From Zygnema cylindricum (Eukaryota; Streptophyta; Zygnematophyceae; Zygnematales; Zygnemataceae), in contig JBBHKE010002413.1 in assembly GCA_037447655.1 (NCBI GenBank), forward strand, positions 1 to 64,000: a stretch of DNA of 64,000 nucleotides, in the 5' to 3' direction. Below the pieces are notes generated by a model, which saw nothing but the letters and a program-made list of their open reading frames with translations, was not told the origin of the DNA and made no database searches. Numbering within the stretch: position 1 is the first letter of the stretch; the number at the start of each line of letters is the position of its first letter. Of the stretch, positions 1 to 61,031 are shown one piece after another. The position numbers were made by a program, and so were the translations under genes.

Positions 1-425
1 GACCAAGACTTAGTGATATTTAGGTACCTCTCTCTAAGAGAGCTTGTAACTATAAAGGTCAACTTTGACCAGCCATAACTTAATGCTCGGGTGAGCAAAT
101 TCAGTGATTCTTTTTGCTGCAGACTCAAGGGAGTCTAAGCTACACAAGGTTGTAGCCGGTCAGAGTCTTTGCGTGCCATGGTGGCACTTATTTAGTGGGA
201 AAGTCAAAGTGGGGAATATTGTCCAAAACACATATTCAAGCTTTGCATTCTGTGGTGGAACTGAGCACACAAAAGGTCTTCTCTTCACTGGGGTGAAGGT
301 GTATTGGGGTTTTGATTGTCAAGGGATCATTCATTTGGGTTTATATCAACTTGGAGTCGGCACTATCTAGATTAGCTTCTTTTGGATCTGCGAATTCTGT
401 GGGCAATGGAGCCCATAGAATTTCA
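1..425 (+). repeat. 5' LTR of element G1 (partial)
   Basis: Matches 3037-3460 with only scattered differences and ends at AATTTCA. After 425 the two copies diverge: here the sequence runs into gag, while after 3460 it runs into flanking DNA. The LTR contains an ATG (406-408) that is in frame with gag, so the last seven codons of LTR-encoded sequence can belong to the gag reading frame. Confidence 0.8.
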
Positions 426-4243: not shown

Positions 4244-4321
4244 CAACAGACCGTCACATTACTAAAAGAGGTACTATTACTCAGACAAATTATAAAGGTA
4301 TTATTTCGTGACGGTCTGTTG
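4244..4321. repeat. Perfect 14-bp inverted repeat at the edge of the scrambled Copia
   Basis: CAACAGACCGTCAC at 4244-4257 is the exact reverse complement of 4308-4321, with a 50-base AT-rich loop. The right arm ends where the duplicated Copia segment begins. It may be a small inverted-repeat element or a hairpin left at a rearrangement junction. Confidence 0.6.
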
Positions 4322-5566
4322 AGGCGAAGTAACCTCCAAAGGACGTGGAAATAAATTTGTCAATCGAAGGACCGAAGCATCATCGGTGACAGGTCGAACA
4401 AGAAAATATGTCGTGTCCAGGACCGTCGCGTCACCAGCGACAGGTCGTACATGAGTAAAATTTGTCGCGTCCAAGTTCATAGCCTCACCAGTGACAGGTC
4501 GTACAGCAGTGAAATTTGTCGCGTCCAGGACCGTCGCGTCACCAGCGACATGTCGTACAGCAGTAGGATAATTTGTCGCGTCCAGGTGTGTCGCGTCATT
4601 AGCGACAGATTGTACAGTACCAGAAATCGTGGAGCGCACTTGGGAAAATTTATTGCCGGAATTGGAGGAAGAGACAAAATCTGTGGAAAGAGTAAGATCT
4701 GTAGAAATAGGGGAAATGTGAGGGTGTAAAGGGGGGGTATTTTGCGATGGGATTAAAGGGGGTGTGAGCAAGGTGGTATTAGAATTAGAGATGACAGTTT
4801 CATAAGGAAGGAATAAACTGGGTAGAGGAGTGATGGGGAAATCGGGTACAAATGTACGTATAAGAGGAGTCTCATGAAAAATAACGTCACGAGTGGTGAT
4901 AATGCGGTGAGAAGTCGGACACCAAATACAATATATTTTGGAATTCGGGGAGTATCCCACAAAAATTACTCGCATAGCTCGAGGACCTAATTTACCATTG
5001 GAATGGGGAAGGATTTTGAAGTATGCTTTGCACCCAAAAATGCGAAAATGGGAGACATCGAGTGAGTTTATATCTCCTTGGGCATTCCCATCGGAGGACT
5101 CTTTTGTGAGAGTGGTATTCGGATCAAGAGGGGTAGGCACCGAATTGCAATCGGACATTGCAAAATGCTCAAGAAGATCAAGAATGTAGTGCTCTTGACT
5201 CATTTGCAAAATGCGTGCAGACCTTTGACGTAAAATAGTGATGCCTAGACAATAGTCAAGATCGCCTAAATCGATCATAGGCCAATAAGATGAGAGAATG
5301 TCTTTTACTTGAGTAATAGAGGATTTACTACGACCTGCGAGAATTAAATCATCTACGTAAATAATAATGATGATTAACTGGTCTCCTGTACCTCTAATAT
5401 AAATCCCAAGATCAGCACTGATTTCTTTAAAACCTTCTTTAATTAATACTGCGACAAGGGTTTGATGCCAAACTCTAGGTGCTTGTTTAAGACCATAAAT
5501 AGACTTGCGTAAATGACAAACAAGAGTTTCTATACCAGGAACAGCGTAACCAGGTGGTTGTTCCAT
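4301..5566 (-). pseudogene. Copia RT fragment fused to a duplicated integrase tail
   Basis: Minus-strand frame of 421 codons. It starts with RT motifs (MEQPPGY, YGLKQAPRVWH) and reaches the catalytic YVDDLILAG. At about codon 160 (after GDINSL) the sequence jumps to DVSHFRIFGC, the start of the integrase C-terminal region that also exists at about 6833. It continues through the 18-residue tandem repeats and stops. RNase H and the end of RT are missing. The upstream half of RT lies at 5576-7771 and is separated by one TAA at 5573-5575. Confidence 0.8.
4387..4615 (-). repeat. 54-bp coding minisatellite, copy B
   Basis: About four to five units of 54 bp, each encoding 18 residues of the form VRPVaGDAtvLDATNFta, within the duplicated segment of element C1. 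The DNA units share GTCGCGTC and GACAGGTCGTAC. The same array is present at 6159-6388. Confidence 0.75.
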
Positions 5567-5575
5567 AAAGATATC

Positions 5576-7771
5576 TTATGCAAGACTACCATGAAGAAAA
5601 GCAGTTTTGACGTCGAGTTGCTGTAATTCCCAATCATGAAGTGCTGCAAGGGACAAAATAGTACGGATGGAGTCAAACTTTGCAACAGGGGCAAAAGTGT
5701 CGTTGTAGTCAACGCCCTCTGTTTGTAAATACCCTTTGGCGACGAGACGTGCCTTGTAACGATTGATAGTACCATCCGTCAGTCGTTTTATTTTGAAGAC
5801 CCATTTTGAACCAATCGCACGACGATTTGGTGGAAGAGTACGAAGCGTCCAGGTATTGTTTGTCATTAATGCGTCATATTCCTGTGTAGCGGCAAGTGGC
5901 CACATGTCAGCATCAGGTCGTTTCAACGCGGCATTTAATGTAGGAGGATCTTTGACGTCGGCAAGGTTAGCATGAGCAAGATTTTCTTGAATCTTCCACG
6001 TCGGTTGTGAGAGGCGCGTACTTTGACGTACGGCAAGTTGTTCACCATGTGGTGTAAGCGGCGTAATGATGACTGAATTGCGAGTAACACGTGCCGGCGA
6101 AGTAACCTCCAAATGACGTGGAAATAAATTTGTCGATGGAAGGACCAAAGCGTCACCGGCGACAGGTCGAACAGGAAAATATGTCGTGTCCAGGACCGTC
6201 GCGTTACCAGCGACATGTCGTACATGAGTAAAATTTGTCGCGTCGAAAACCGCCGCGTCACCAATGACAGGTCGTACAACAGTGAAATTTGTCGCGTCCA
6301 GGACTGTCGCGTCACTAGCGACAGGTCGTACAGCAGTAGGAGAATTTGTCGCGTCCAGGTGTGTCGCGTCATCAGCGACAGATTGTACAATACCAGAAAT
6401 CATGGAGCGCACTTGGGAAAATTTATTGCCGGAATTGGAGGAAGAGACAAAATCTGTGGAAAGAGTAAGATCTGTAGAAAAAGGGGAAATGTGAGGGTGC
6501 AAAGGGGGCGTATTTTGCGATGGGATTAAAGGGGGTGTAAGCAAGGTGGTATTAGAATTAGAGATGTCAGTTTCATAAGGAGGGAATAAACTGGGTAGAG
6601 GAGTGATGGGGAAATCGGGTATAAGTGTACGTATAAGAGGAGTCTCATGAAAAATAACGTCACGAGTGGTGATAATGCGGTGAGAAGTCGGACACCAAAT
6701 ACGATATGCTTTGGAATTCGGGGAGTATCCCACAAAAATTCCACGCATAGCTCGAGGACCTAATTTACCATTGGAAGGAGGAAGGATTTTGAAGTATGTT
6801 TCGCACCCAAAAATGCGAAAATGGGAGACATCGGGTTTATTTCCATGCCATGCTTCAAAAGGAGTTTTGTTAGAGAGAGAAGAGGTAGGAGAGCGATTAC
6901 GAATATAAGAGGAAGTTAGCAAGGCTTTCGCCCAAAAGTGGAAAGGTAAAGAGGCAAAATGGAGAAGAGAGCGAGATATGTCAATGAGAGTGCGATTGAG
7001 ACGTTCGGCATCACCATTTTGTTGGGGAGAATGAGGAGAAGTTTTGTGATGAATAATACCATGTGTGAGTAAAAACTCGGAAAACTCATTGGAAACAAAT
7101 TCTCCCCCATTATCCGTGCGAATTGTTTTGATGCGATCCAACAAGTGATTTTCGACAAGCGCCTTAAAATGTTGGAAATGGGTAAAAACCTCAGATTTAT
7201 GACGCATAAAATAAACATGTGTAAAGCGAGAGAAATCATCAATAAAAGTAAGAAAATAAGATGCGCCACTAAGGCTTGGAATGGGAATAGGACCGCATAC
7301 ATCACTATGAATGAGATCAAGGGGAGCCAAAGAGCGAGAAGAAGAAGAAGGAAAAGGTAAGCGAGGCATTTTTCCAAGAATACAACCATGACAAAAGTCA
7401 ATCTTGTTTTCAATAAAAATATCGATGCCATTTACAAGCCCTTTTCCAAGGGAAGCTAGACTAGCACCATTAAGATGACCGTATCGAAGATGCCATGTCA
7501 AAAAAGAGGAAGAAGAAGGAGAATGAGCAACAAAAACATGATCAATATCATTAAAAAAAATTAAAAGATATAAGTTGCCTATTCTAGTCCCACAACCAAT
7601 GAGATCTTTTGAGGAAGAAAAGAATTGAACGTGGGATTTAGTGATGACACCAAAATTCCCATAGCGCAAAGCCGAAATAGCCGAAAAAATATTTTTTTTT
7701 AGGTCAGGTACGAAATAAACTTTGTCCAATATAATTCGACGAGAGGCGTGCGAACCGGATTTAATATACAC
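5576..7771 (-). pseudogene. Copia pol: integrase and N-terminal reverse transcriptase
   Basis: 731-codon minus-strand frame. Order: GAG-pre-integrase zinc-binding region (HLRYGHLN then CHGCILGK, residues about 118-153); integrase core with the catalytic triad in DVCGP, TDNGGEF and NGDAERLNRT; integrase C-terminal region (VSHFRIFGC, GIFVGYSPNSK); an 18-residue tandem-repeat linker (about residues 480-545); then RT beginning WPLAATQEYDALMTNNTW through [17 protein letters not shown] to FLHGSLA. A TAA (5573-5575) ends the frame where active Copia elements read on into RT. NGDAER differs from the common NGVAER next to the catalytic Glu. Confidence 0.85.
6159..6388 (-). repeat. 54-bp coding minisatellite, copy A
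   Basis: Tandem 54-bp units inside the pol frame, between integrase and RT, encoding 18-residue repeats around GDAxVLDATNF. This array is the likely parent of the copy at 4387-4615. Confidence 0.75.
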
Positions 7772-7870
7772 CTATCCAACGAGAGTGGAGGTTAGAATAA
7801 TATTATTACCCAAATAAATACATAGACGAATGGAAAAGGGAACCATATTAAGCATTTAATCACGCTGACA

Positions 7871-9025
7871 TCACATGTGATGAGAAGCGACTGAGTCAAT
7901 TAGCCAATCAGATGGATTACCTGATTGCGAAAATGCGTACCCATAGTCCACAGAGGGAAGTGGGGGAGGTATATTTGGGACAGGTACAATTGCAGGTGAC
8001 GCAGACCCTATATTTTGGGTGGACGTGGGAAAAACATGCGGTGAAACCGGCGGATTTGAAGGAAGATAGTAAAAAGGAGGAGTCGTATACCACGGTCGCG
8101 GTGGGCCGTACGACAAATTGAAGTCGATCGCCGCGTGCGCCGCATGACCAGGTGGCGGTGGATAGGCGTGGGGATACGACAAGGACTTTGGATTTGGATT
8201 TGGTGTAGTAAGTCATCGTGGTCCCCCAGCCGTACGGTCTTTTTCGCGTTTCGTAGCCAATGCAGGGCACGCGTCGATGACGTGGTCACGTTCTTTGCAG
8301 TACTTGCAAAAAAAATGAGATCCTGCAATCATTGGAGGTTTCTTGGGAGAAGAGGCAAAAAGCGCTGAACCATCATTAGTAACGACAGGGTTGTTAAGAT
8401 TTAAGCGCGTCTCTTCGTGTAATAACCGATTAGTGAGATTTTCCAAAGTGACAGTGGACGTATCAGTACTGACTGTACTTGCAAAAGAGTTAAACGAGAG
8501 AGGTAATCCACCCAAAATGACACTTATGAGATCCTCATGGGTGATTTTGTAATTAATGCATTTAAGTCGTCCAGCCAATGATTCAATTCTTTGAATAAAA
8601 ACAAGCATAGATTCGGATTTATCTTTTTGCGCGATGTTAAACTGTCGACGTAGGGCCAATCGATGTGGCCAAGTGTCAGTTTCATAGGCGCGACACAAAA
8701 TCTGCCACGCCTCATGAGAAGTTGTCGCCTCGCGAATCTGATTTGCAATTTGGCTGTCCAAAGAAAGGACAAGACGAGAAAGCGCGACAGAATCTTTTTG
8801 AACCCATGAAGCGACAGCTGTCTGAGTAGTAGCAAAGGTGACGTCACCGGCGGCAAGAAGGACAGGCAACTTGACAGTGCCATTAATGTGTCCTCAAATC
8901 TTTTCGAAAGAAAGCAAATGCTGGATTTGAAACTTCCAGTCATAGAAATTTTCGCCGTGAAATTTTGGCACAGAGTTTGAGACAGACGAAGGGCTAGGCC
9001 CATAACCTATTGAATGTGATGCCAT
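7871..9025 (-). pseudogene. Copia gag and protease region of C1
   Basis: The start is ATG 9023-9025 (MASHSIGYG) and leads into FHGENFYDWKFQIQHLL, typical of Copia Gag. A frameshift near 8895 moves the frame, which continues at 8213-8869 (UBN2-type Gag with the knuckle CKYCKERDHVIDAC). A second shift near 8213 leads into a Pro-rich linker and the aspartic protease start DWLIDSVASHHM. The usual catalytic DSG is DSV here, so the protease would be dead. The frame then breaks before pol at 7771. Confidence 0.75.
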
Positions 9026-9932: not shown

Positions 9933-10175
9933 ATTTACGTCAGCACACGACAAAACATCAAAGCGAAGTCAACCCCCAAAAGCGCGCTGTAATGCGCTAC
10001 GCTCTCCGTGTTTCCTTGTGGGAAAGTTCCACATAGTGATCGTCCGCGTCATCTTCAAAATTCTCTTTTCATTAAAGTTCGTTCGAACCGAAATCTCTAC
10101 TACTGAGATGAAGAGAAAAGTGACGCAAGGCCATAATCTGCCACGTGGCCACTTCTCTGCTCTCTTTGAAGAATC

Positions 10176-10690
10176 ATGTCTTCAGTAGCCATTGCTCCCT
10201 TGCTCGTCGCACGTGTGAGGAGCCCTCCACCGTTGTCCTCGTTTCAACTCTCTTCGTCGAATGTGAGAGGCGCCATGGCTGTATCTCCTCATGCCTCCGT
10301 AATGACGTCAGCAGGAAGCCACGGCAAAACTCTAAAAGTAGCCGTTGTGGGAGCAGGTGCCGCTGGACTCGTGGCAGCCAGGGAGCTGCTTCGAGAAGGG
10401 CACCACGTGGCAGTTTTTGAGCAAAGCTCTGAAGTTGGAGGCACGTGGAATTACAGCGAAGCCATAGACAGTGATCCTATAAGCCAGGATTCCAGGAGGA
10501 CACGTGTCCACAGCAGTATGTATGCTTCCCTTAGAACAAATCTTCCCCGAGAATGTATGGGTTTTTTGGATTTTCCTCTTGTTCCTGCCCTATACATGTA
10601 TCGAATCTTCAAGGCTTACTGGATAAGGCGTACGGCTGGTCCGTACGGTGATCATCCAGAGGTCACTGGGTCAATTCTCACAAGGTGCAC
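10176..10690 (+). pseudogene. Flavin-containing monooxygenase-like gene, 5' exon only
   Basis: ATG 10176 opens a frame whose first 45 or so residues are Ser, Arg and Ala rich, like a plastid transit peptide. The FAD-binding Rossmann motif follows (VVGAGAAGLVAARELL, with FEQSSEVGGTWNY). Then come SSMYASLRTNLPRECMGF and GDHPEV, both at positions expected for plant FMOs of the glucosinolate S-oxygenase type. The homology ends near 10668, where a GT (CAGAG|GTCACT) could be a donor. No later FMO exon (NADPH site, FMO signature) is visible on the plus strand. Retroelement and duplicated sequence begins within 100 bases, so the gene looks truncated. A very long intron leading out of the window cannot be excluded. 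Confidence 0.7.
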
Positions 10691-10731
10691 TAATATATTT
10701 TGCAAAGAAAAATTGCCCTAAATGATCTGTC

Positions 10732-11504: not shown

Positions 11505-12075
11505 CTCTTTTTGGATCGTTTAGGATATTCAAAACAGAGAAAATAGTTAGCAAGTACTCCGGTAATATTTGCCATTCTCATTTACATGGGCCAGTTTTGG
11601 AAACACATATAGTGGGATCCGATTTTTTCAAATGTGATCGGAAAAAGCTTGGTGTGCACGCACGGCGGTTTAGATTTTTGAACGTGTCGGGCTTTTTGAA
11701 GCATTTATTCAGTGACGCACACGTGGACAATTTAGAGACTCGGAAAGGCTTCCTAGTGTAGTACGCCTGACGCAACCCCAAATCTCCATCATCGAGGCAA
11801 ACCTGAATTCATAAAAAACATAACAGTTTCCCTCCTTAACAACATGTATGGATTGTGTAAAATAGAAAGAGAGTTGCAAACACAAAATTTCAGACCATCT
11901 TGCCGACTTCACTTCCAATATTAGACTCTTGTACTAGCTTGTTGCTTTTTGCCATTTTTTGTGACATACCTCTTCATTTGGACCTATCATAGAGGTGGCA
12001 GAATTATCGACACGTGAACAAAATATTCCCACATTGAGCGTATAGAACTTTATGGTATTCTGAAGCTTCCCAACG
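11505..12075 (-). pseudogene. Partial duplicate of the 3' end of the LRR-papain-LysM gene
   Basis: Matches 13899-14465 along its whole length, including the last intron, so it arose by DNA duplication and not by retroposition. It holds the end of the penultimate exon (11986 to about 12070; LysM end KFYTLNVGIFC) and a complete terminal exon (11578-11802, 75 codons with stop, ending TGPCK). Frame, splice sites and length of the terminal exon are intact but the sequence has diverged (for example LRQAYYTRK against SKMANCTGR). The 5' breakpoint falls inside the LysM exon. The copy has no protease domain of its own. Confidence 0.75.
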
Positions 12076-13969: not shown

Positions 13970-16900
13970 TCATTTACATGGGCCAGTTTTGGAAACACAT
14001 ATAGTGGGATTTCGTTTTGCCAAAAGTGATCGGAAAAAGCTTTTTGTGCACGCACGACGGTTTAAATTTTTGAACGTGTCCGGCTTTATGAAGCATTTAT
14101 TCACTGACGCACACTTGGACGATTTAGAGATTCGGAAAGGCCTCCCAGTGCAGTTTGCCATCTTCGACCCCAAATCTCCATCATCGAGGCAAACCTGAAT
14201 TCATAAAAACCGTAGCAGTTTCCCTCCTCAACAAAATGTATGGATTATGTAAAATAGAAAGAGCGTTGCAAGCACAAAATTTCAGACCATCTTGCCAACG
14301 TCATTGCCAATATCAGACTCTTGTACTAGCTTGTTGTTTTTTGCCATTTTTTGTGACATACCTCTTCATTGGGACCTATCATAGAGGTGGCAGAATTATC
14401 GACACGCGAACAAAATATTCCCACATTGAGCGTATAGAACTTTATGGTATTATTAAGCTTCCCAACACCAGGATCCATGCGATTTGCAATAATAGAATCG
14501 CATGTATCTTCTGGTTTGACGTCATAATACTTCACACACGGTAAGGAGTACGGAAGATTTCCTCGCTTGATGCACACCTGGAAGACAATTAGATTGACAA
14601 AGTATACGCTGTTAGTGGTCAATGTGAATCCTCAAATTTGAAGTGCGTTTAGCTTACGTTTTAGAATTTTTCATCTGAAAAAAATTGCTAAGAGTTCTCC
14701 AAACCTGCTGATAAGGCTGGAGGTCGTTGCAATCAAGATCTGGGTTTGGTGATTCTGGTCCGAAAAAAGCCGTCAGATCAAACATATTCTTAATCGAATC
14801 ACAAGTGTCATCCTGCAAGCAAAAACACATAACTAAACAGCTCTTAGTTAAAAATAGCTTACGATTAAAAATCATGCAGAGCCTTATGAAGTTGGTTAAA
14901 AAAAAAAAAGTAAATCTCAAGAAACTCTAAGCGTGCTCAGGAGTAAGTTTTTTAAACAAAAAAAAATGCAAGCTTTAGTAGACAAATTCCACCGCAAAAA
15001 ATAAAATCTTAAATTGGCACTCAATCATATGCTGGTGAAAGCACCATGTCTTTTTTCGCAATTGCTACTTCAATGCAAAAAATTAACTGACCTTTGCCAC
15101 AGTATAAGGAAGAGAGCAGTTTCTATAAGCTGTCACATTAAGAACCGTTCTAGGAGGCAATGGGATGCTGCAGTTCAGTTTCTGCAGTACAAAAATAGTC
15201 CAATCAATTTTTCCCGAATGTGCAGATGCAGATAATCATTCACATAAACATTCACCTCGATTACACAAAAAGGTCAACCAAACATCAATTTATTGAACCA
15301 AAATTTTCTCCTGCCTCTTACTCTCACAAAGCTTTTCCTCAATAAATCTCTTAGTTACTACACGAACTTATTACTCACTACGTAAGTGTACAAAGCAATT
15401 ACCATATCGGACGTTCCGCAGTACTCACAAGTGACAAACAACACTGGACACAAACAAAGAGACGAACACGCTAACACCTATCAAGACACGTCTTACCAAA
15501 ACATAACGTGCGTTGAGAGGGAGGAACGGTACCAAGTGCTACGCACAAAAAAACAAACATACTTTCCAAACATACGTAATACTAAAACATCCATAATGAC
15601 CAGAATTCAGCGCCGATTTGCACAATATATTCTAATATTCCCTCTCTCATTGTGGAAATCATCACAACCTGTCACAAAAAGACCTTAGGTCGTCTTCCAA
15701 TAAATACATCATATGTGACAGACTTAGTTAACATATCTGCCTCTTCCTCAACTGTAGGTACAAAAATGACCTACTAACTCTTGACATTCACTATATCCCT
15801 GTTTTACCTTATTTTGATTTGCAAAGTCAATTCTTGTAATTCCATACACACTGGCGATAGTATTGCAGGTCACATTTCGACTTTCTGGCACAGTATAATT
15901 GTTTAGGGCGTTTCCAAGGATGACAGCTGCAAAAGTGGACCATCGTGAACTAGATTAGGGTTTCCGTACAAACGTCCCACAGTTAACAACAACTGAATGT
16001 GAAAACAATTGAAACTGTTTTAGTCATTAAAAGCACTTCTACATATCCATCTGCGGTTTCCTTTTACCTTTCGAATCTACTTTCTGTCATATCAGCATCC
16101 TAGTACAGTTTGTTACCTAGCACACAGAAAAGTTCCTCCTTTGTTTTCTTTGTTATGAAGTAAGGTAATTATATGTATGCTAATTCTTGCATTGACAATT
16201 GTACAGAAAAAATATACGATTCATACAAATAGTACAACTTTATTGATACGACTACTTGAAATACTTGCCAATAACGTCAGTATTTCGTATGTATAATTAC
16301 CCAATGACCGACACACATGTGAGTGCGTACTATTTAACTGACCTGGTACACACGTGAGAAGGTTCTCAGCCTCACTGGCCGCATAGCCCATAGGGCAAAC
16401 GCAAATGTAGGTTCCCGGATAAAGCGCAGAATTCACGCAAATGCCCACGCCACATGGATTTTTGGAGGTGAATGTGCACGGATTGGCTGCATGGCCGCAT
16501 AAAGCATCAATTTCCATATAGAAAAGGGCATCAGATATAACTATGAAAGGTAAAATATTCATTGAAATGGAGAGTAGGACGTTTGTCTGCCATAAACGTT
16601 ATGATGGCAACGGCGACTAAAACTCAATTGGTCGATTTAAAGCGTTCTCGGGTCTGTGAACTTCTGAAGCAAATGGAGGGCTTTCGATCCCGATTTCCCT
16701 ACATCTTTCTAATGCAATAAAGGCCTCAAAACAGGTCTGCCGTCCACTAAATTTTACATCCAAAAATAAACTGTGCAAAATTTGGAAACACGTGTGAAGG
16801 GTTTGTGTGAAAAGCGTCAAAAAATAGTTTAATTATTTTCAAGCTTAATTTTTTTGCAACTGCCCTGCTCCTGAAATATTCCCCTTACTCTACATTTTTT

Positions 16901-17648
16901 TTATGATGATAGAGATAGGATCGTTCTCACACACACGAGAGTGCGCAAAAAATGCACACACCGATAAACGAAAGCACTTCACCACTCACAAGAGGAAACT
17001 CACAGAAGATCAACACTCACAAAGAACAACACCATAAAGATTTATCACCATCAAAAGAGTCTTGTTCAAATACGCATATATTAAGGCAAAGCTATTTCTC
17101 ACTCTCACAAAGAACTCTTCACTATAAACACTTCTCACAGTCCTTACTCAAAGATTACCATACAAATGATTATACGACAACTGAAAGACCAACCTATCTT
17201 AACTTACTCATAAACATAAGAGACTTAACAAAACATACTAGGGTACAAACACTTCCACATACATAGCCAAACACAACCAAAACTAAACGTGCTTAAGACC
17301 GTGTGTACAGTACGAACGCGAACCGTAGCATGCGCAAAATATATCGACCATCACATAAAGAAAACGCATGTGAACACGAAACGGATTCATTGATTTGCAC
17401 ATTGCACATCTCTATACAAATAACGATAGGTTAACCGGAGTACAAGTATATAAATGTGAGGACAAAACCTGGAGCGCAAGTTTGCGTGCCATCCGTGTTG
17501 GCGACCGCCACGAAGTCGCTGCCGCATTTGCATAGATTGGTTGCGCCGGACACAATGCAAACGCCGTTGCCGCATGGATTCATAAGACCCGGACCATTAG
17601 CCACTTGGAGCTTATTCCGTGCAAAATTGTTTAGCCTACAAGGGTCGC
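13970..17648 (-). other. EGF-like, LysM and Cys-rich tail exons of the multidomain gene
   Basis: 17469-17648 and 16343-16540 each encode a Cys-rich EGF-like module (NPCGNGVCIV with CKCGSDF; NPCGVGICVN with CVCPMGY). 15808-15926 encodes the first LysM (NNYTVPESRNVTCNTIASVYG). 15092-15181 plus 14705-14812 encode the second (LPYTVAK joined to DDTCDSIKNMF, then CNDLQPYQQ). 14362-14577 encodes the third (YYDVKPEDTCDSI, FYTLNVGIFC). The terminal exon (13970-14194) encodes a basic Cys-containing tail ending TGPCK. Confidence 0.8.
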
Positions 17649-20600
17649 CTGCATAAATGAGAGAGCGCACATGTAAACACACACCTTCACAATATATTTA
17701 TTTTTAGTTGGCGGTTATCACCTATGATATAATTGGGGTTATTTATGTCACGGGGGTAAAAAATCCCACAGCAAAATCTAAATTTTGATTCTTCAACGTA
17801 CCTATTTTTATAGAAACGAAATCTTATACAAAGGAAACAAAAAAGGATTAAGTCGGTTCTGACAAGAAATCAAAACTTGTTACAAGAACATACGCTACTT
17901 TTTAATACCTATGGTTTGAAAATTCTCAAAAAGTGGCGTTGATGATATTACTAACAAAGTGGAAAGCAAAATTTATATTTTCAGCCACGCATATTGTGGA
18001 AGGTAACGTGGATGTTAATGACCAAGGGCAGGTGGGCTCCTACTTGGAGTATTGACAATTGGTAAAAGTGCCGGCAAAGTGTTTATTCCGCAAATTCCAG
18101 GTCCTCCCGTAATTTTTAATTTCATGTATCCTTTGTCGCCCCAATTCGGGCCCCAAGAGTTTCGGATGAGCCAATAGGGGGGAGAATAGGTCAAATCATA
18201 GCCAACCACAACGACCGCGTGGTCCACTCCACCAGAAAAACAGTCTTCATCATCAAACACTCCCTGTGGAAACAATGACAGAGGCTACAAGTCAAACCAG
18301 ACGTTTAAGAAAACCCTTTTTGTGATAGAATTGACACAATTTATTTGAAATTAGAAATAAAAAGACAATTGTCCTCGAGAGATGAGAAAAGTGAAAGTTG
18401 GGGTGAACTATTTGATCCACCTGGAGGAGTTTGCGCAACCACGATCGCGCAAGAAGTCACGAAGAGATGGTTCCGACGAATTACGAGAGTAAAAATAACA
18501 ATAATGGGGAGAGAAAGAAAAAGAAGTTGCACCTACTGTCAATAGAGAGAGGCGGTTCCGATTCAAATTTTACAGTCAAACTAAAGTCATGAGACCAGAA
18601 GACGGACGAAGTATAACGGACACTTGTATTTCTCAATTCAACTGATTTGTCTTATTCAAAAACCTAATTTGGTCATGAGAGTGTTGAAGTTTCACATGTA
18701 ACGAAATACAAACTTCCAAAATCCAGTACACCTTGTCAGATGCGATGGTTTATTTGCTTACCACCTTTAAACGTAACTCACCAATTTGGGATCATAATTC
18801 AAGAAAGCGCTTCCACTTGCTTCTAAGCTCACGATTGCTGTTTGTTGTTGGAGGGCCAAAAGCAATCCTAGCCACCCATTCATCTGGATCCTCTCGAAGG
18901 ACGATATGGTCCACTCGTTTCTTGTCTACACATTCCAATTAATTTTTTGTTAAGCGGACAGAACCAACATCACAAGGATGTACCACTTAATTAGATGGGG
19001 GAAATAGTACTGCTGGTGAGCTTCATTAAATAGCAACGACATAATGCAAATCTTTATTATCATGCTAAAAGACTTGACATTAGAGATGGAAGTAAATAAA
19101 CTGAAATTTTGATCTAGTAGGCAAATCGGTCCATTTTCCGCTTTTTGTATATTCCATTGAGATTCTAGTTTCATTAGGCAGATCGTTTGATTTTATGCCT
19201 TTGCACACCTCCCTCGGTCTTAACAGGAAAAATCCAAATTTTTGTGGCATGACAGCGAACAGAAAATTGAGGTTTTCCAGCAAAAGCCGATGTCACAATG
19301 CCAACCGAAGACATGGCATTTCCATGCGACCTCACAAATTTACTTTTTCGTATCTGGACAAAATCATAGACTCCGTAAAATTCTGAATGTTGGTAGACAT
19401 AAAATAGGCAATAGCAAGGACCCAACTAAAGAAACAAAAAGAGCAAATTGTTTATTACTGAGTTATGAATCTTCAAAGTTTAAATAATTATATTACAGAA
19501 GCAGTTTTGCATATTTATTACTATATATTTGTTTTTAGGTGTGATGTGGCAAAACCGTGCCCCACTTGGTTTCTGAAGATGGGAATAAGGTATTCATTAT
19601 TCAGTAGTCTGCGGATGTGAGAAACGCTGTTTTAGTACCTTCGGCGAACCAGTGCAGACCCTTTTATTCACAAGCGTCATAGCACTCAATTTTTCTAAGT
19701 GGAAGGACCAAAATCTTGGCCATCCAACAAATCGAAAATTGGATGACCATTACGTCCTTCTGCAATCTAAATGTATTAAAAATGCACTATAAGTCCGACT
19801 TCTGACCTAATTTATCGGCTTTTGGGACGGATCTGTCCATTTCTAACTCTAGTTCTAATGGTGGTAGTTCTGCGCAAGCTTTTAGTTTGTCTGTTCGTTT
19901 TTTATTTTCCCTAGTTCAAAATTGAGTGCATGTGGGTAAGAAAATTACTTGGCCTCTCGAGCAATTGCCTGGAGTATAGTCAGAGATCAGCATGAGAGGA
20001 TTCTTGGAGGCATAGTCAAGGGCTGCTGTTGGCCATCCACCGACAGCGCAGTCCCGGGCCAAGCCTGAGCAGTTCAATATTTGCTCCTCTGCAATAATAG
20101 GAACATCGGAACTTCCCGCATTCGTAATGTAAAAGGCGCTTTCGATAGCCGAAGTGGATGCAAAGACCCAACATGTGCCTGGAAGAGCCATGAACTTTGT
20201 GCATAAATTTTGAATTAAAATGGAGTTCATGTGGTTCAACATTTTCCTGCTGTCTAACAAATTTGATTGTGAAAAAAATCAGTTGCTAATACTATGTACA
20301 TTGAAAGGTGCCATAGATATTGCTCAAACTGTTGAAAGTCTTACATGTTGTTAAAATAAAAAAGAAAAACCTTATTGACAAAAGTGATTGTGTTTGTGAC
20401 CAGCCTTATTCTGGTAAGTGGATCAATAAAAGGTCTTTTTTCACTTGTCAATTGCCAAGATGATTTTGGGCAGTATTTTTGAAATTTCATGCTTTCATTG
20501 CCTTCAAACAATTATTTTTTAATCATGGTGGAGCTCTTTGATTATTTTGCATTAAGGTCAGGACTTGGATCATGACTTGGTAAAACGATGGTAAAAGTTA

Positions 20601-23600
20601 TACCCAACTTAATACCAATCATGCCTCAGGTTTCATTGATCTCTTTTCTAAGTACAAGCCCCATACAGAAATTGTCTTAGACATACTGCAGTTTTGCTGG
20701 TCCTTGATTGAGGCCACAGCTCTTCGCTTCACCCAATTCCAGCTTGTCGCAACCATCCAAGATGGTTTGTTGTCGTCATCTGGTAGGATGTATCCCAAGC
20801 TTACATAGCGGAAATATCGGTTCAGATTTGTAGGCTTTGCTCCTTCAAGACTTGTAAGCCCTAGACCACGTCCCTCTGCAATTTCAAAGTGGGAATTAGG
20901 CTTAAACATTAATTTCTTTGAGTCTAGGGGACCGATATGCAATCACCTTCTTATCGATAATGAAATCAGCCCTCCAGTTTCATGTACAATTTCTGAGTGG
21001 CTGATTGGTCATCTTACATTTTCAGCCTCAATGCAATTGTACTGCACGCCTTTGTCTGCTTCTTAGCGTGTAGTCGATACAATCTAAAATACATAAAAAC
21101 GTGCGCAACCAACAATTGTGCCGATATGTCTGACCTTAAGAGACAAGTGAGGCAATACACGCTACTTACCGAAGGTACAAGTTGCACTACTTTCAGTCGT
21201 GTTGTACCCCTTGTCACAAGTACATGGAACATCCAAATCCGTACAATAGCCATGACCTCCACAAACCCCCCTGGGCTGGGTTGTATTGCAAAACCTTTCA
21301 CAATCCGATACACTTTTCCTGTCTGTCGAGCCTTCACAAATTGTTGAGTTCTCAACATCAAAACAATTGTTTTCTACATTGCCACAAATAGGATTGCTAT
21401 TCACACTGATGCTCGCCGAGGAGAAGAAATTGTTGCTAACGTCAACTTTGGCGTCTAGCAAAGTTTGGAGTTCAAGAGTCAAGCTGCCAGTGAGAAGGTT
21501 GTTTCGCAAACTCCAACAATAACCTTACCACAATAGATATAGCATGGGTCGTTATTGTTCTCGTCACTTGTAATGTTTGCCACAAAAAAAAAATTCTGCC
21601 TCGTTTAATTAATACTGCAGAATGATGCACACACAAAAACTCAATTGCCGCACTTCAACGCTAGATAGCTGGTATGTCACCCACGAGGAACCTCCCACAT
21701 CATTTTTTAGACTGCATTACCATCCACATTAGTCATGTTTTAGATGAAGATATAAGAAATAACATTTTTTTGATTATTGAGCAATGAACAATGAAAAATG
21801 CCAAAATTGCTGATTTTAGAATATCAGAATTTTCTTGGGGGTTTATCATAACCCGATTTTTTCTTCTTCTTTTATTTGTAGAGGAAGGAAAAAAAAACAA
21901 GATGATTTGGACTTTAGCTTTTCAAGTTGTAGGTATCAAAGACATCTGGAGGTTTCGACAGCGACAACCATTATGACTTTTATGCTTGATATCTTAAAGC
22001 ATTCAAGGCCAGCCAAATGTCTAGCTTACTACTTTCTTCATGCCATCATAAATTCATGTTACAAATCAAATCAAAGAATGACAAAATAAAGAGATGTAAC
22101 TTACAATGCTTCAAGTTTTTTAAGACTGGAAAAACTTGCAGGCATTGTGCCCATCCACTTGTTGAAGGACAAATCTCTGCATTAAAATTGGGATTTTACA
22201 CGAAAGATTTAGTAAACGAAAGTGGGTACTTTTATGATACAAAATAATATCAACAACTTCAATATCTCCTTACTCTTGTAGTAAAGCCAGAAAATTGGGT
22301 AGAATGTGGATCAACTTACAGTTTTCGCAACTTGCTTAGGCTGCCTATATTTGCAGGTAATGGACCACTGAAACTGTTCTGATCCAGATACCTGAAACAT
22401 TCATTTGGAAAAGTTTGATATATTTATTTGAAGAAATCGCCTGGGCTCTAAGATTGAATGCCCACATCTCTGACCCAGACTCCCTTCAGCCAGAAGCTAA
22501 CACTGCTTATCCTCATACAAGCATGCAACCTATCACCGTTTCTGCAAAAAATAAGAGGGTACAATTGTATAGCATTGATTTGAAGTGGAAGGTATGTGTA
22601 CTTGTAATACTTACAACTGTTCGAGTCTTGGCAAATTCATAAGACTGGAAGGAATTGAACCTATAAGGTTGTTTTCAGAGAGGCGTCTGCACAACAACAA
22701 TCACGTCAATAGAGTAGAGTATAACTAATATTTTCTGCCGATAATTGTAGCATCACGATTTTGCCTATAAATTGAGTTTTTTTTTTGGCATCTCTTTGCT
22801 TTCCTAAGTTCTAAACTAAATAAAAAACTGCACTTATTCACAAAGACCCTTGTATACTTCGTCTCTTCCAAGGAGTGAACAAATATAGGCTTTTGAAATG
22901 GAAGGGCCACATTTTTTAGATTGGAGTGAGGTGTAAAGATACAATAACCATAAAGTACGTTTACAATAAATGTAATATTTTTAAGAAATGTCTTCTGCTG
23001 CTATTTTTTCTTCTATTATCTTTGAATCTGGGTCATTCCATGTACATTAATTTGCGTCTTCCAATACGTCACACACTTCATTTTTCACGACAGTAATTGT
23101 TAAATGTTCAATCACATTCTACAATGGTTGAAATGGGCTTAAATGGGTTTAATGTTTGACAGATGTTGGAATCTCACCACCTAAGACGATTTCCTAACAA
23201 ATTTTTGTGACAATAAAACATTACATAGCTTCAAATCACGTAACATAGTACCCTTTGTACCTCACCAAATTTTGGAGCATATTTGACCTTTATTCAAACG
23301 GTTAATTTGATCCTCAAATGAATATGTGCTGTAAATTTAAGGTAAAACCAAAAGTTATTTAAATTTGGATGTTACTTTGGAGGTTGAATTGTTCTCTGAT
23401 TTTCGTTTTTCATTTATTTCCTTTTATTTGACATAGTAGACTATTTCGGGCTCCTTTTTATGGATTTATGAAGATTTTTAGCCTGTTTTTTTTTTGGTAG
23501 TGACATTATTCCTAGTGCAACTTTTCTCCATTGCCAAACGGTTTAATTGCCTCCGTTTTTTTTTCTTGGCGTTCGAATCTCATGTGATATACATTTTCGG

Positions 23601-25516
23601 TATGTGTTTAAAAAAAGGCATTAGAACCAAAGGTGGTGTTGGGCCCACTTTTACCGTTTTTTGTCAATTGATGAATAATCAGAAAATGTGCCAACTTCAG
23701 ATCTCAGATTAATCAGATCCCAGATTGGACGTCAAGTGCTAACAGATTTCAGTTTTCAGTTTGTTCTATGCTCTTAAAATCATAGATGAAACCCAAATGA
23801 TTTTATTCAAACTCCTCCACAGTCTAACATTCACGTAAGAAAAGTATTCTTTGATGAATCTAAGTTCAATGTTAACATTAGTTCCATCAGAATTCAAATG
23901 CGTCTTTTCAGACTGTTTTGCAAACATCTAAAATTCTAGGGAAAATAAAATCCATTTTGAAACTAACAAAACGACCAATTAGAACGACATTTGAGCCCTC
24001 AAAAAAAGTTGCAAAACTGGACAAATTTTAGGATTTAAAAAGCGAAGTTGAGGGTCATGCTGATGAGCTTAACTCCGTTCAAAAAAATTATGTTTCACCA
24101 GATTTTTTTTTTGCAAAAATCACATTTGTTTCTATTTTTTCGGACGGCTCTAGGTCCATTTTTGAGATGGATAAAAATGAATGCTTTTTTTTGTCAATTT
24201 GAGAGTCACGCCAGCGAATGGGGCTGCCTAAAACGAAATCCTATTCGAGCAAAAAAAAAAAAAAGTCGAATGCATGTCGGTCACAGCAGCAAAACTCAAA
24301 AAAATGACGCGTTGACAACCATTTCCGCGAGCAACACCTACCGTGTCGACAAACGCGGTACGTGTTGCTGACGGATGTGTGAAAGGATTGATGAACTACA
24401 ATCTGTTCTTTAATCCGTTCTTTGTTCTGTCCTAGCGGGGCCTTTTTGTTATTTTGGAAATCGTAATTAACCGCAAATCGTAATTAGAGTAAAGAAATAA
24501 TTAGAGTAAAAAAACGAAAAAAAAAATAGAGTTATGAACTCTAATTTGAGTGATAGATTGTTTTCAAAAAAAAAAATTACTCTAATTTATCAATAACTCT
24601 AATTTGGGCGTAAATATATCTACTGTAAATTAGGTACACGTACAGAATCTGACAAAACCTACAGTTTCACGTCATTATGACGTTTGCACTACGCGGTCTG
24701 TTAAAACGCAGATAAATGATAACGGCCTGTACTAAATCATTATTTGTACTTTTTTACTTAATAAAGTACAATTTTGGTCAGACACCAACCGTACGCCACA
24801 CTATTTGAAATGGCACTGTATTAAAGTTATTAACGCTCATTCAAAAAGTACCTGCTCATTCAAAAAGTACCTTAAATACAGTAAAGAATAATTTAGAATT
24901 ATGTACTCTATTTATGGTGATAGAGTCAAAATTTGGGGTGACAGAATTAGCGTACAGAACTCTAATTACGATTCGCGGTGTACTTAAAAACTTAAGACTT
25001 CAAAAAATACAGCCGTCACGAAACATTCCCCAATCCCAGGTTCCACAAAATCGATCAGTTAGGAAAAACACGTAAGTGGGAGTAACCCTAGAGGTGAGCA
25101 TTAAGTCGCATGTAAAAAACTTGTGCAAAAATATTTCCCTGTGACTTGTAGATTTACAATGAAATGAGAAAAATCAAGCAAAAACCTCAAGCAAAACTGA
25201 TTGAAGGAATTCTTGAGACGGGAAAGGGAGAGGCATTAAAAAGAGTTAAGTAAAAAGAGTCTTAAACGAGATGCACTAAACTCTTGAGCTTTGGTAGCCT
25301 CAACTTATGCTTTCATCGCAGTTTGAAAATCCCTGACATTTTCCTTAAGAAATATGCATTATTTCAAAAACATTTCTGACGATTGGTTCCAGCCTAATTT
25401 GTCCGAGAAATTGGAGTGTGGGGAACAAAAATTGTCACACTTACAGTATTTTAAGCTTCCGTAAATTTCCCAGAGACGTCGGGAGAGATCCACTCAAGTT
25501 ATTGGAAGATAAATCT
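13970..25516 (-). CDS. Multidomain LRR / EGF-like / papain-type cysteine protease / EGF-like / LysM protein
   Basis: Minus-strand exons: 25445-25516, 22615-22686, 22320-22391, 22105-22176, 21170-21510, 20687-20875, 19949-20178, 18782-18925, 18044-18263, 17469-17648, 16343-16540, 15808-15926, 15092-15181, 14705-14812, 14362-14577, 13970-14194. Every junction has GT-AG and matching phase; the sum is 2548 nt, 848 residues from the first LRR to the TGA. The order is at least five plant-type LRRs, one EGF-like module, a C1A protease with Gln, Cys (QQNCSTCW), His (VDHAVVV) and Asn (RNSWG) present, two EGF-like modules, three LysM motifs and a Cys-rich tail. LysM binds GlcNAc-type glycans and LRR/EGF modules bind proteins, so an extracellular or wall-associated protease is inferred. 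No I29 inhibitor prodomain is seen. The true N-terminus is unresolved, and whether the LRR exons and the protease form one transcript rests on phase only. Confidence 0.8.
18044..20875 (-). other. Papain-type catalytic domain exons of the multidomain gene
   Basis: Four exons, about 261 residues. The first follows the EGF exon in phase and encodes a linker of about 45 residues, then WNWVKRRAVASIKDQQNC. The split codon completes STCWVFAST, with the nucleophile Cys. EEQILNCSG and GNCSRGQ follow. The exon at 18782-18925 gives AIVSLEASGSAFLNY, where papain has SVAIEA. The last exon gives GVDHAVVVVGYD and WLIRNSWGPNWGDKGYMKL. The usual GSCW is STCW here. Confidence 0.85.
21170..25516 (-). other. LRR exons and first EGF-like module of the multidomain gene
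   Basis: Four exons of exactly 72 nt (25445-25516, 22615-22686, 22320-22391, 22105-22176), each phase 2 to phase 2 with a CTTAC (GTAAG) donor. They encode repeats such as LDLSSNNLSGSLPTSLGNL and YLDQNSFSGPLPANIGSL. The fifth exon (341 nt) starts with LRNNLLTGSL, completes a final repeat with DVSNNF, then has a Cys-rich linker and an EGF-like module (GVCGGHGYC, CTCDKGY). The 2.7-kb intron before 22686 contains a MITE. Confidence 0.85.
24460..24988. mobile_element. AT-rich MITE-like repeat with GCGGTGTAC end
   Basis: Contains repeated AATTAGAGT / ACTCTAATT blocks in both orientations and ends ACGATTCGCGGTGTAC at about 24970-24985. The same end occurs at 42090-42112 and 49070-49092. It lies within the long LRR intron. 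The left boundary is approximate. Confidence 0.45.
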
Positions 25517-25689: not shown

Positions 25690-27220
25690 ACAAGTGCCCT
25701 TCGTTTCACGTACAATTCTACAAGAGTATCCAAGAGGCCTATGACTTCCGATATGCTTCCTCCGGAGACGGTTGATGGGAGTATCCTGCATCACAGAAAG
25801 GAAGCCTTTAAGAACCACTTTCTTCTTTGCGCAAATAGTGCAAGGGCCACTAATCAGAGAATCGTAAAAGACCATGAAGGTTGGGCTTGAAAATTATAGA
25901 TAACCCAACATGGGTTCATGTAACATTGATAAAATTTTGAATGCTACCCGGTGATTAACTGCCTTCCAATCACTCCTTTCTCTCAAAACAGACCAGATAG
26001 TGTATTTGTTTGCTGGAAGGTAGCTTAGAGCCTCGTAGGGCTCATCTGGTGAACCTTGACTCCCCTCTAGAAAGCATGTCAGTTGCGGTATTAAGGAAAA
26101 CCGCTCAAGGTAACCTTTCCAATTGATTAGTTTTCCAGTAGAGGATAAGGATTTGTGGAGAGGTTTCGGGCAACTCTGTATTGATTATTCCAAGGGAGGG
26201 GTTGCCATTGGCTGCTAATATCAGAGGATAGGCTTCAAACAAATGTGTGAAAAAGGTTAAAAATTCGCTTGACTGCTAATTCCTATGATCTTTGCAAACC
26301 AGTGAAAGAAGAGATAATATCTTTCCCTCCATTAGTTCTTGCTTGGGCAGACGTCTTAGTAGATTGCCTGGATATTAGGGAAAAATCTAAGATAGCAAAC
26401 TTGATGTATATGCTAGGTAAAATTTGTGGATACACCTTGGTTAAAAGACAAAGAATGTGAGTGACTAAGTTAGATAGTGGGACGAATTCATTGTTGTGAT
26501 TGGCAAGAGCTATATTAGAGAGAAAACGAGGCATTGGTTTTAGCAAAATCTGTTGATAAAAAAATCACCATACAGATAGTTACCAAATTAGTTATAGTAT
26601 CCTTTTCGCTTTCAAAGCTTCAGCCCTGTATTTTACAGTTGACAACTTTGTTTTCTGAACTGAAAACAGATATTTTCTTGTGTTTTATACAATGCTATAT
26701 ATCGTATAGGATGCATATCATATCCATTGAAAAAGTCAAAAGACATACAATTTGGTTACAATATTGTTCTCACACTCCACTTTAAACCACTTGCATACGT
26801 TACGAGGGTCTTTCCATGACGAAAGTATTTTTGATTGGTCGATCAACCCAGCTTTGAATTCCAACAAGATGCTTCCTGGTCCCATAGCACCATGGAGAAT
26901 CCACAATAAACCCCACTGCTTTTAACTGACAGCTCTTTATCTTGCACTCTTATGGAGATTTTTGTAGGTCTGGCAAAATGTGTAAATACAAATATTCTTG
27001 ACGTGATGGTCATCAAGTTGCTAACCATCAAATATCACGATTTTCCAGCAACTCTACTATTGTTACAATTTCTGAGATATTTTCTTTTTTGTGTGGAAGC
27101 CGTAAGTTGCCCTTGAAGGAAGAAAATGACAAGGGAAAGATGTCATTGGGATCTGGTAATGAAAAAACCCGCAGAGTCCTCCCAATCTTTACCGATTTAA
27201 AATATTTGTGCATCAGACGT
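25690..27220 (-). other. Candidate upstream exons of the multidomain gene, domain unknown
   Basis: Three minus-strand stretches look exonic. One starts near 27145 after a pyrimidine-rich CATTACCAG acceptor (PNDIFPLSFSSFKGNL). One starts near 26968 after CATTTTGCCAG (TKISIRVQDKELSV). One starts at 26175 after ATACAG and runs about 85 open codons to about 25925 (LINWKGYLERFSLIPQLT, YLPANKYTIWSVLRERSDW). A further frame at 25690-25875 contains GPCTICAKKK. Donors are weak and I recognise no family. They sit in the right place for the N-terminal part, but could be unrelated. Confidence 0.3.
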
Positions 27221-27874: not shown

Positions 27875-28148
27875 TCATTTCAAGATGTATTTTGCTGACA
27901 TTTCCTTGTTTGGGGTATAACCAGGTGACGCTGGGGGAGGACTAGGAGTTGGGGATGATAGAGGACGAGAGAGAGGAGGTGGGGATGGCCGAGGAGAGGG
28001 ACGAGGGGGAGGGCGAGTAATTGGGGTTGGTGGAGGAGATGGGGAGGGTGGAGGGGAACGTGGAGGTGGAGATGGTGGAGGAGACGGAGGAGGTGGGGAT
28101 GGCTGAGGAGAGGGACGAGGGGGAGGGCGAGCCAGTGGGGTTGGTGGA

Positions 28149-28218
<70 letters not shown>

Positions 28219-28597
28219 GGAGGTGGGGATGGTGGAGGACGAGAGGGTGGAGGAGGGGAGAGAACGGGGGACGGGAGAGGAGGCGGTGATTGTTTCAACA
28301 CTACAAAACATTGCGAAAAAAAGCCTCGTTGTCATCAAATTATTTCTTGTCACAAAACCATCAGTTACATTTCAAGTAGACGAATCCATTGAAGGTTCCA
28401 GTATAGATTATGTAGGCATGAAATGATTGCTTACCAAAAAACGTACCACGGAGACCTTCCACGAGATCCATCACAAAAAGGTCAATATGCGTGGTTGTCA
28501 GTATGTATGGTTGTAATATAGAGTGGAATCCATTACCAAATGAACGCAAAAACCAGAAAAACTCAAATCCGCCAGCATTGGCCCTCCAATTTGAAGC
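27875..28597 (-). other. Candidate exons for an extensin-like Pro-rich region, interrupted by poly-G/C
   Basis: Exon 28435-28597 has a TTTAG acceptor, a GTAAGC donor and 54 open codons (GGFEFFWFLRSFGNGF and onward) of unknown family. Its phase joins the next exon (high end 28300, TTGTAG acceptor), which reads QSPPPLPSP, PPPPSRPPPSPPPPP into the homopolymer. After the homopolymer the Pro-rich motif continues only in another frame (PSPPPPSPPPSPPP ... ASPGYTPNK) to a TGA at 27875-27877, unless a donor lies before it. SPPPP-type sequence suggests a hydroxyproline-rich wall protein, either the N-terminal part of the downstream gene or a separate short one. Confidence 0.45.
28152..28217. repeat. 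Poly-G tract of 66 bases
   Basis: An uninterrupted run of 66 G on the plus strand (C on the coding strand), inside the Pro-rich coding stretch. Its length is not reliable in most sequencing methods, and it sits exactly where the reading frame changes. Confidence 0.95.
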
Positions 28598-60392: not shown

Positions 60393-61031
60393 TGCTTCCA
60401 AAAAGAAAAAGAAAAAAAGTAAAAGGATATCTGTTTAGATTAGCAATATCTTAAAAAGAAATATTTTGAAATAACGGAGCCGCTGAGACGGCTCTCAAAT
60501 GGAAGGAGCAAGCAGATCATAGTTTCCCGAGAAACAGAAAACAAAATTGCCGAAGCCTCGTGCTTTATGCTCATTCCTTCCTCTCGTGAGAAGGAACACA
60601 AAGAATAATAGAATACATAGAAAAGTACACTGTACTTTCTGTAATCTTCTACCTAAAACAACTGTGAGCACTACTGTACAAAAAGTACAGTACAGTATAT
60701 CTGCTGTATCCGTACTATACGCATATCGTACTCAAAAAACCATATAATATGAACAGTGTACGGTGGAGTCACATATAGCGTATCCAATTGTTGTTCACAT
60801 TGAGATCGTCCACATAGCCCAATATCTTCACCCACGTGATATAGTTTTGATAGGAGTAACTTTGTTCGGAACTTGGGTTTTCTAATTTATAAATCAAACA
60901 TTGTACCGTATGAACTAAACACGTACTAAATAAATAGTACACAGCATCTTTTTTGTGGCAGCCAGGAAACAGGTCGAAATAAGAGATGCAGGAGCAGGAG
61001 CTGCAGATCTTGCAAAACTGAAACAACAGGC
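60393..61031. promoter_or_regulatory. Divergent intergenic region of EF-Tu and the thioredoxin-like gene
   Basis: 639 bp between two outward-facing start codons. It contains a cluster of GTAC palindromes (60625-60735) including AAAGTACAGTACAGTA, and a repeat-like block at 60765-60800 similar to 44757-44830. A shared promoter is inferred from layout only. Confidence 0.4.

Follow-up and report, generated by a model that had tools for sequence, protein, structure and literature searches.

Does the minus strand of this Zygnema cylindricum locus encode one protein in which leucine-rich repeats (LRRs), EGF-like modules, a papain-like protease and a LysM region are joined, and what would such a protein do? 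The window, the whole stretch of 64,000 nt that was analysed (positions 1 to 64,000 of contig JBBHKE010002413.1), was initially annotated with one such gene at 13970..25516. On rejoining, all 16 minus-strand exons from 25516 to 13970 were obtained with in-phase joins and no stop, with AG before each exon and GT after all but the last, and the borders named earlier (22176-22105, 21510-21170, 20875 and 14194-13970) came out identical; the length of 848 residues did not hold, however, as 830 were counted. The exons within the earlier extent thus stand, but its 5' end does not, since an LRRNT_2 exon at 26875-26749, which is the missing LRR cap, joins the following exons in phase and completes a gene of 17 exons and 872 residues ending in a stop. 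The features are as follows.

27922..28300, minus strand: proline-rich (extensin-like) exon, probable member; both close paralogs have a comparable stretch before their LRRNT exon
26749..26875, minus strand: LRRNT_2 exon, LRR-domain cap (Pfam PF08263, E 8.7e-7)
25445..25516, minus strand: LRR exon 1, 72 nt, phase 2-2 (Pfam, 72-nt exon scan)
22615..22686, minus strand: LRR exon 2, 72 nt (Pfam, 72-nt exon scan)
22320..22391, minus strand: LRR exon 3, 72 nt (Pfam, 72-nt exon scan)
22105..22176, minus strand: LRR exon 4, 72 nt (Pfam, 72-nt exon scan)
21170..21510, minus strand: LRR end and first EGF-like module (cysteine pattern); the same exon adjoins the protease in paralogs
20687..20875, minus strand: short conserved linker (LN-YFR--S-GY), standing where an I29 propeptide would be, and protease start with the oxyanion Gln
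19949..20178, minus strand: protease exon with the catalytic Cys (NCSTCW)
18782..18925, minus strand: protease exon
18044..18263, minus strand: protease exon with the catalytic His (VDHAV) and Asn (RNSWG), PF00112 match
17469..17648, minus strand: second EGF-like module (cysteine pattern)
16343..16486, minus strand: third EGF-like module (Pfam EGF at residues 595-622 of the spliced protein, below cut-off)
15808..15926, minus strand: LysM region exon (Pfam LysM, residues 654-690)
15092..15181, minus strand: LysM region exon
14705..14812, minus strand: LysM region exon
14362..14577, minus strand: LysM exon, used in the genome count
13970..14194, minus strand: terminal exon with stop
11578..12074, minus strand: incomplete duplicate of the final two exons, a possible alternative 3' end or fragment

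The LRRNT exon has a 63% identical counterpart with the same CAG acceptor in both L029 and L030; an acceptor at 26915, also possible, was replaced by 26875, which is common to both paralogs. The proline-rich exon (28300-27922) is probably joined 5' of it, as judged from sequence comparison: its acceptor is conserved and in L029 is in phase with the LRRNT exon, while the match of the stretch itself to the paralogs lies in low-complexity sequence, where composition helps the match. The reading frame of this exon shifts over a run of 66 C (28217-28152). Scanning for LRR exons of 72 nt gave four on the window's minus strand, every one of them in this gene, with none on the plus strand and none in 20 mononucleotide shuffles. 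Acceptor 21510 lies 3 nt downstream of the expected start of a 72-nt repeat unit, which in our own reading leaves the LRR one residue short. No signal-peptide exon was found within the 64,000-nt window; in the relatives P0001 and P0018 the protein begins with a leader that is hydrophobic as read by eye.

In the spliced protein, Pfam identifies Peptidase_C1 (131.9 bits against a cut-off of 20.7, E 4.6e-38) and LRR_8 (E 9.3e-12), with LRRNT_2 (PF08263) and PF00560/PF13855 above cut-off. LysM reaches 26 bits against a cut-off of 20.9 (E 9e-6) over the whole protein, with no single stretch passing alone, and EGF (E 0.0051) falls below the Pfam cut-off. The catalytic Gln, Cys, His and Asn are intact (DQQNCSTCW, VDHAV, RNSWG), and both this catalytic set and a sequence match are shared with the plant papain-like proteases ficin and papain. 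Neither a kinase domain nor granulin (PF00396) is among the 13 Pfam families found at E up to 1.

An I29 propeptide is usual, if not universal, in C1A peptidases, and the plant papain-like proteases (ficin, papain and the granulin type RD21) carry one; these proteases are not known to have LRR, EGF or LysM modules. In the spliced protein PF08246 (I29) gave no match at E up to 1, nor was it listed for the 13 family proteins scanned, and none of 22 family proteins, partial ones included, shows a crude ERFNIN-like pattern. The predicted fold of the family relative P0026 appears to resemble those of plant papain-like proteases, and some rows of the comparison align this model from residues 138-141 onward with pro-papain, procaricain and procathepsin K, in most such rows from about pro-residue 62-69. 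The linker may therefore be the tail half of a propeptide, but pLDDT is below 50 at P0026 residues 127-147 and no argument is built on it. AlphaFold2 of P0001 from four sequences was uninformative (best-model mean pLDDT 42.3).

The window gene is a member of a family expanded in the Zygnema cylindricum genome. Two close paralogs keep the module order as far as they were fetched, and one of them (L025+L029) matches 16 of the 17 exons with a dN/dS of 0.26 against the window gene, its 17th exon probably lying beyond the fetched stretch. A genome count took in 106 protease-exon copies, 51 of which have an LRR-EGF exon upstream and a LysM exon downstream in sense (wrong-side or antisense neighbours: 3 and 4 among the 106), so the module parts stand in the same order in at least 51 places. 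Of the 34 less similar protease copies, a single one is preceded by an LRR-EGF exon, and 20 lack both flanks. Chance joining of the exons is ruled out by the paralog exon match, the shuffled LRR scan and this count. The same genome holds a lectin-protease copy (L031), and L024 and L025 keep one LRR exon that is lost from the window copy.

In one subfamily, whose protease is conserved (pN/pS 0.16-0.41), the top five ranks of variability among LRR positions go to the five classic concave ones, in a test whose exons are possibly not orthologous and whose pairs are not independent. At the other non-scaffold LRR positions pN/pS exceeds 1 as well, although pN is low there. Some further exons are also rather free to vary, one LysM exon reaching 0.71 (6 loci) and EGF3 0.54. 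Measured against its close paralogs, the window gene has an LRR ratio of 0.37-0.46, which stays below 1, with EGF2 as high (0.39-0.52). Since the LRR positions expected to touch a target vary most, it is likely that these proteins recognise surfaces that change, where they would cleave proteins.

On balance, the LRR-EGF-papain-EGF-EGF-LysM protein is probably secreted and would act as a recognition protease tethered to the wall or to glycans, in a role that would be defence-like. An N-terminal signal would direct it into the wall space, and its LysM block would anchor it at GlcNAc-containing glycans. The variable LRR face, whose place a legume-type lectin takes in at least one other copy, would touch a ligand that changes, most probably the surface of a microbe or of something else that is non-self. 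Docking would either place the papain domain on its substrate or relieve the short linker standing at the place of the I29 propeptide, and cutting would then occur only where the ligand is. The glycan or wall location and the defence role, both among the initial suggestions, are consistent with the data and sharpened by the hypervariable concave LRR face. More tentatively, hypervariable sensor (LRR, or legume-type lectin in sister copies), papain-like protease executioner and LysM glycan hold could form one extracellular molecule, present in dozens to a hundred genomic versions and acting without a kinase or NLR relay, in an alga near the land-plant root.

A wall-bound protease whose LRR, EGF and LysM parts only anchor it to the alga's own wall, and which trims wall proteins during growth, is an unlikely alternative: the protease and EGF2 modules are conserved within a subfamily, EGF and LysM are compatible with wall anchoring, and the proline-rich exon resembles wall proteins by eye, yet housekeeping hardly accounts for a module order repeated in 51 places or for a hypervariable concave face of the LRRs. 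Somewhat less probable still is recognition of self and non-self, or of mates, at conjugation, where variable LRRs would fit the surface of the partner cell and the wall would be opened by the protease. The sequence evidence for a variable recognition face serves this reading equally, and relatives occur in Closterium and Mesotaenium, which are conjugating algae, but a family this large would be more usual for microbe-facing receptors.

It is improbable that the window copy is decaying while the rest of the family works. A likely relict LRR at 23203-23151 marks the lost LRR exon, the shifted acceptor at 21510 shortens the LRR, and the 66-C run changes the frame of the proline-rich exon; against this, the 872-residue frame has no stop, the catalytic residues are kept and dN/dS to L025+L029 is 0.26. 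The proline-rich stretch of L030 has a comparable frame change, which casts doubt on how the C repeat was sequenced or assembled.

That the modules form one gene, as first proposed, is borne out by dozens of paralogs, by the independent single-ORF transcripts P0001 and P0018 (EukProt) and by the Mesotaenium gene model P0025 (jgi/Mesen1/2598/ME000166S01720), all three with the same module order, together with the paralog matching 16 of 17 exons at a dN/dS of 0.26. Two or three adjoining genes (LRR-EGF, protease and LysM protein) joined by eye are ruled out with near certainty by these transcripts and gene model, by phases that fit at every junction and by the 51 same-order paralog places, even though, of 150 LRR-EGF exon rows, 81 have none of the 106 protease exons in the next 20 kb downstream.

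The recognition protease proposed here has relatives in Closterium and Mesotaenium, with at least five Mesotaenium rows among the matches listed. P0001, P0018 and P0025 carry LRR-EGF-C1-EGF-EGF-LysM in one protein like the window gene, and P0018 and P0025 share its LRRNT_2 match; these three differ from it in having more LRRs, and the proline-rich stretch was not seen in them. P0016 and P0017 (legume-lectin, C1 and LysM) have the same protease and LysM parts, but these two and the lectin-C1 protein P0033 (Closterium) bear an L-type lectin instead of LRR-EGF.

Plant LRR receptor proteins and LRR-extensins likewise have an LRRNT_2 cap, 24-residue LRRs in 72-nt exons and a variable concave face. 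The window protein differs from the receptors in having no kinase domain and a protease as its effector part, and from LRR-extensins, whose extensin part follows the LRRs, in that its probable proline-rich exon lies upstream of LRRNT. LysM receptor kinases carry a kinase in the same protein, unlike the window protein, and RD21-type papains end in a C-terminal granulin, for which PF00396 gave no match here.

Plants are thought to sense through receptor kinases and NLRs, with secreted papain-like proteases as separate defence players. Here sensor and protease are united in one protein, which several algae have retained and one has greatly multiplied. No land-plant names are among the family matches listed; if this is a defence family, it would represent a route of recognition present in the algal relatives of land plants and apparently not retained by land plants themselves. 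The variable LRR face, fixed protease and glycan anchor make a testable system, and the family also allows tests of how C1A proteases without an I29 propeptide stay silent.

The initial annotation knew of no protein with this combination, which holds for the literature searched, where no LRR-C1A-LysM architecture is described; yet the whole architecture is present in public data of other algae, and its C1A and LysM half is in print. C1A peptidase-LysM proteins exist outside vascular plants, and EGF modules are listed with lectin domains outside angiosperms, according to an excerpt of Van Holle and Van Damme 2019 (PMC6362431). Compared by description only, the window protein has both the C1A and the LysM domain of those proteins, for which the excerpt names no LRR part, expansion or variable face.

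In five Closterium relatives Ser stands in place of the catalytic Cys, so not every member of the family needs to be catalytic. A homolog search that used just the C-terminal region as query recovered P0003 and no other protein.

The 16 exons initially annotated between 25516 and 13970 on the minus strand were confirmed in their AG/GT borders and single reading frame, although they encode 830 residues instead of the 848 claimed. The LRRNT_2 cap is encoded by an extra exon 5' of these, at 26875-26749 if the acceptor common to two paralogs is used, which gives 17 exons and 872 residues plus a stop. A Pfam scan of the spliced protein, with the start placed at 26915, returned Peptidase_C1 (4.6e-38), LRR_8 (9.3e-12), LRRNT_2 (8.7e-7) and LysM (9e-6); as the EGF match (0.0051) is under its cut-off, the three EGF-like modules are based on the cysteine pattern and on relatives passing EGF, such as the Mesotaenium gene model P0025. 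A likely LRR exon relict (23203-23151, minus strand) lies inside the 2.8-kb intron following the first LRR exon, and the exon matching it is still present in the paralog loci L024 and L025. A partial second copy of the LysM exon end and terminal exon (12074-11578, minus strand; 497 nt gap-free alignment) could be an alternative 3' end or a fragment.

The reading of these modules as one gene, and not several, is upheld by their order, which was found again in P0001, P0018 and P0025. P0001, a EukProt transcript product of 1,178 residues identified by homolog search, contains LRRs, papain and LysM, and shares 40% identity across 94% of the query region. A profile search that scored 7,994 candidates yielded 58 proteins with E no higher than 1e-6, including the transcript P0018 (LRRNT_2, LRR, C1, LysM), P0025 (LRRNT_2, LRR, C1, EGF, LysM), P0031 (LRR, C1) and several Mesotaenium and Closterium proteins with C1-EGF-LysM. 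Apart from P0033, a lectin-C1 protein, the matches from P0032 onward belong to the papain family with no LysM, LRR or lectin among their listed domains, and many of them are animal cathepsin O. P0003 (494 residues), in which part of the protease is joined to EGFs and LysM, is most likely spliced because its contig has 1,664 bases, and the tree places it within the paralogs of the window's own genome.

This genome (352.8 Mb, 2,689 contigs) contains at least 150 PF00112 matches (150 of 303 candidates scored). Twenty 10-kb loci were read around high-scoring matches to the profile's C-terminal half, picked by score and thus non-random. All 20 have the second EGF exon, 18 the LRR-EGF exon and 15 a LysM match inside the fetched stretch, and 72-nt LRR exons occur at 18 (60 sense, 1 antisense). 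Genome-wide, there are at least 150 matches each to the last protease exon (150 of 162 candidates scored) and the LRR-EGF exon (150 of 445), and 103 to the LysM exon (119 of 119). The first 106 protease-exon matches by E-value (at least 52% identity over most of the exon; 86 contigs) were counted. At no fewer than 60 of them the 20 kb upstream contain a sense LRR-EGF exon, at 73 the 20 kb downstream contain a sense LysM exon, and 51 or more have both, these counts being lower bounds wherever candidates were partly scored and the 51 same-order places not being equal to 51 reconstructed genes; neighbours that lie on the wrong side or in antisense number 3 and 4. Among the 72 copies with at least 69% identity, LRR-EGF was found upstream of 59, LysM downstream of 59 and both at 50; for the other 34, the numbers are 1, 14 and 1, with neither at 20. 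Of the 150 LRR-EGF rows, 81 (on contigs C96, C270, C734 and others) have none of the 106 protease exons within 20 kb downstream, and possibly represent a second large LRR-EGF family.

Two of the 34 less similar copies were inspected. L031 encodes a legume-lectin domain (PF00139, E 6.4e-36; 910-1815) preceding the family protease, so that the N-terminal sensor is swapped; the transcript product P0016 likewise has a legume-lectin domain before its protease. The protease and second-EGF exons are present in L032, where the fetched stretch reaches just some 1.9 kb 5' of the exon with the catalytic Cys and contains no LRR match.

In the tree, the window gene clusters with L024 and L025 (support 100/99). 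The close paralog made up of L025 and L029 matches 16 of the 17 exons, with dN/dS of 0.26 over 781 codons (EGF3 0.15, C1 0.18, LRR-EGF1 0.21, LysM 0.23, LRR 0.37, EGF2 0.52), and the other, L024 and L030, matches 12 of 17 (dN/dS 0.29, LRR 0.46). All 18 loci readable at the four catalytic positions (20 examined) retain Q, C, H and N. Five of nine Closterium rows examined (P0002, P0022, P0024, P0028 and P0029) carry Ser in place of the catalytic Cys and are likely pseudoproteases in a sister lineage; P0004 and P0033 keep the Cys, and the catalytic motif was sought and not seen in P0027 and P0030.

Both close paralogs contain, 5' of LRRNT, a proline-rich stretch resembling window 28300-27922, which in L029 is a single open frame ending in phase with the LRRNT exon. 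The frame shifts inside the proline-rich repeat of the window and of L030; the window exon includes a run of 66 C (28217-28152, minus strand), whose flanking frames differ. A diverged second LRR-EGF exon with a possible phase 1 donor is located about 2.9 kb upstream of this stretch in L029 (6216-5893) and 1.4 kb in L030 (1623-1946), and may indicate either a longer gene or a tandem neighbour; of the 106 protease places, 10 are preceded by two LRR-EGF exons within 20 kb.

Across the 15 loci of a single subfamily, the last LRR exon (14 loci) has a pN/pS of 0.89, compared with 0.29, 0.41, 0.24 and 0.16 in the four exons of the protease; LRR-EGF1, EGF2 and EGF3 have 0.39, 0.20 and 0.54, and two of the LysM exons 0.71 (in 6 loci) and 0.36 (in 4). 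By position, in 48 LRR exons from 14 loci, with 12 exons from 4 further loci excluded, pN/pS at nucleotide identity cut-offs of 0.70, 0.80 and 0.88 is 1.21, 1.44 and 1.39 for concave positions and 1.21, 2.05 and 2.14 for other non-scaffold positions, with pN of 0.507, 0.369 and 0.196 versus 0.175, 0.113 and 0.057; the low values at scaffold positions are partly due to the search pattern, which requires them. The top five entropies are those of the five xxLxLxx positions, and when the position labels were permuted, 3 of 3,003 permutations separated six concave from eight other positions at least as strongly as the real labels do. As the pairs are non-independent and the exons possibly non-orthologous, these statistics, short of a codon-model test, are a strong hint that the concave LRR face is variable.

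What is observed is the architecture, the number of copies, the retained catalytic residues and the variability of the concave face. The product is most likely a recognition protease that would be secreted and held at glycans by binding them, with a sensor part that would have a ligand and may gate the protease; recognition is its putative role. The C1A and LysM combination is known and not retained in vascular plants (PMC6362431). LRR is listed among the enriched domains of Zygnema genomes, in a paper whose main text mentions neither papain nor LysM (PMC11096116). No description of an LRR-C1A-LysM protein was found in the titles and abstract openings searched, most subscription literature being beyond reach.

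Retrotransposon-like reading frames, Copia-like by eye, adjoin the gene at 4304-8893 (minus strand) and 376-2322 (plus strand). Elongation factor Tu-like gene pieces with introns (59136-55199, minus strand) were recognised by eye except for domain 3. Further matches in the window are as follows.

55199-55486, minus strand, EF-Tu domain 3, within the elongation factor Tu-like gene pieces
10170-10718, plus strand, start of an FMO-like flavoprotein
60930-61517, plus strand, thioredoxin-like frame, just under the cut-off
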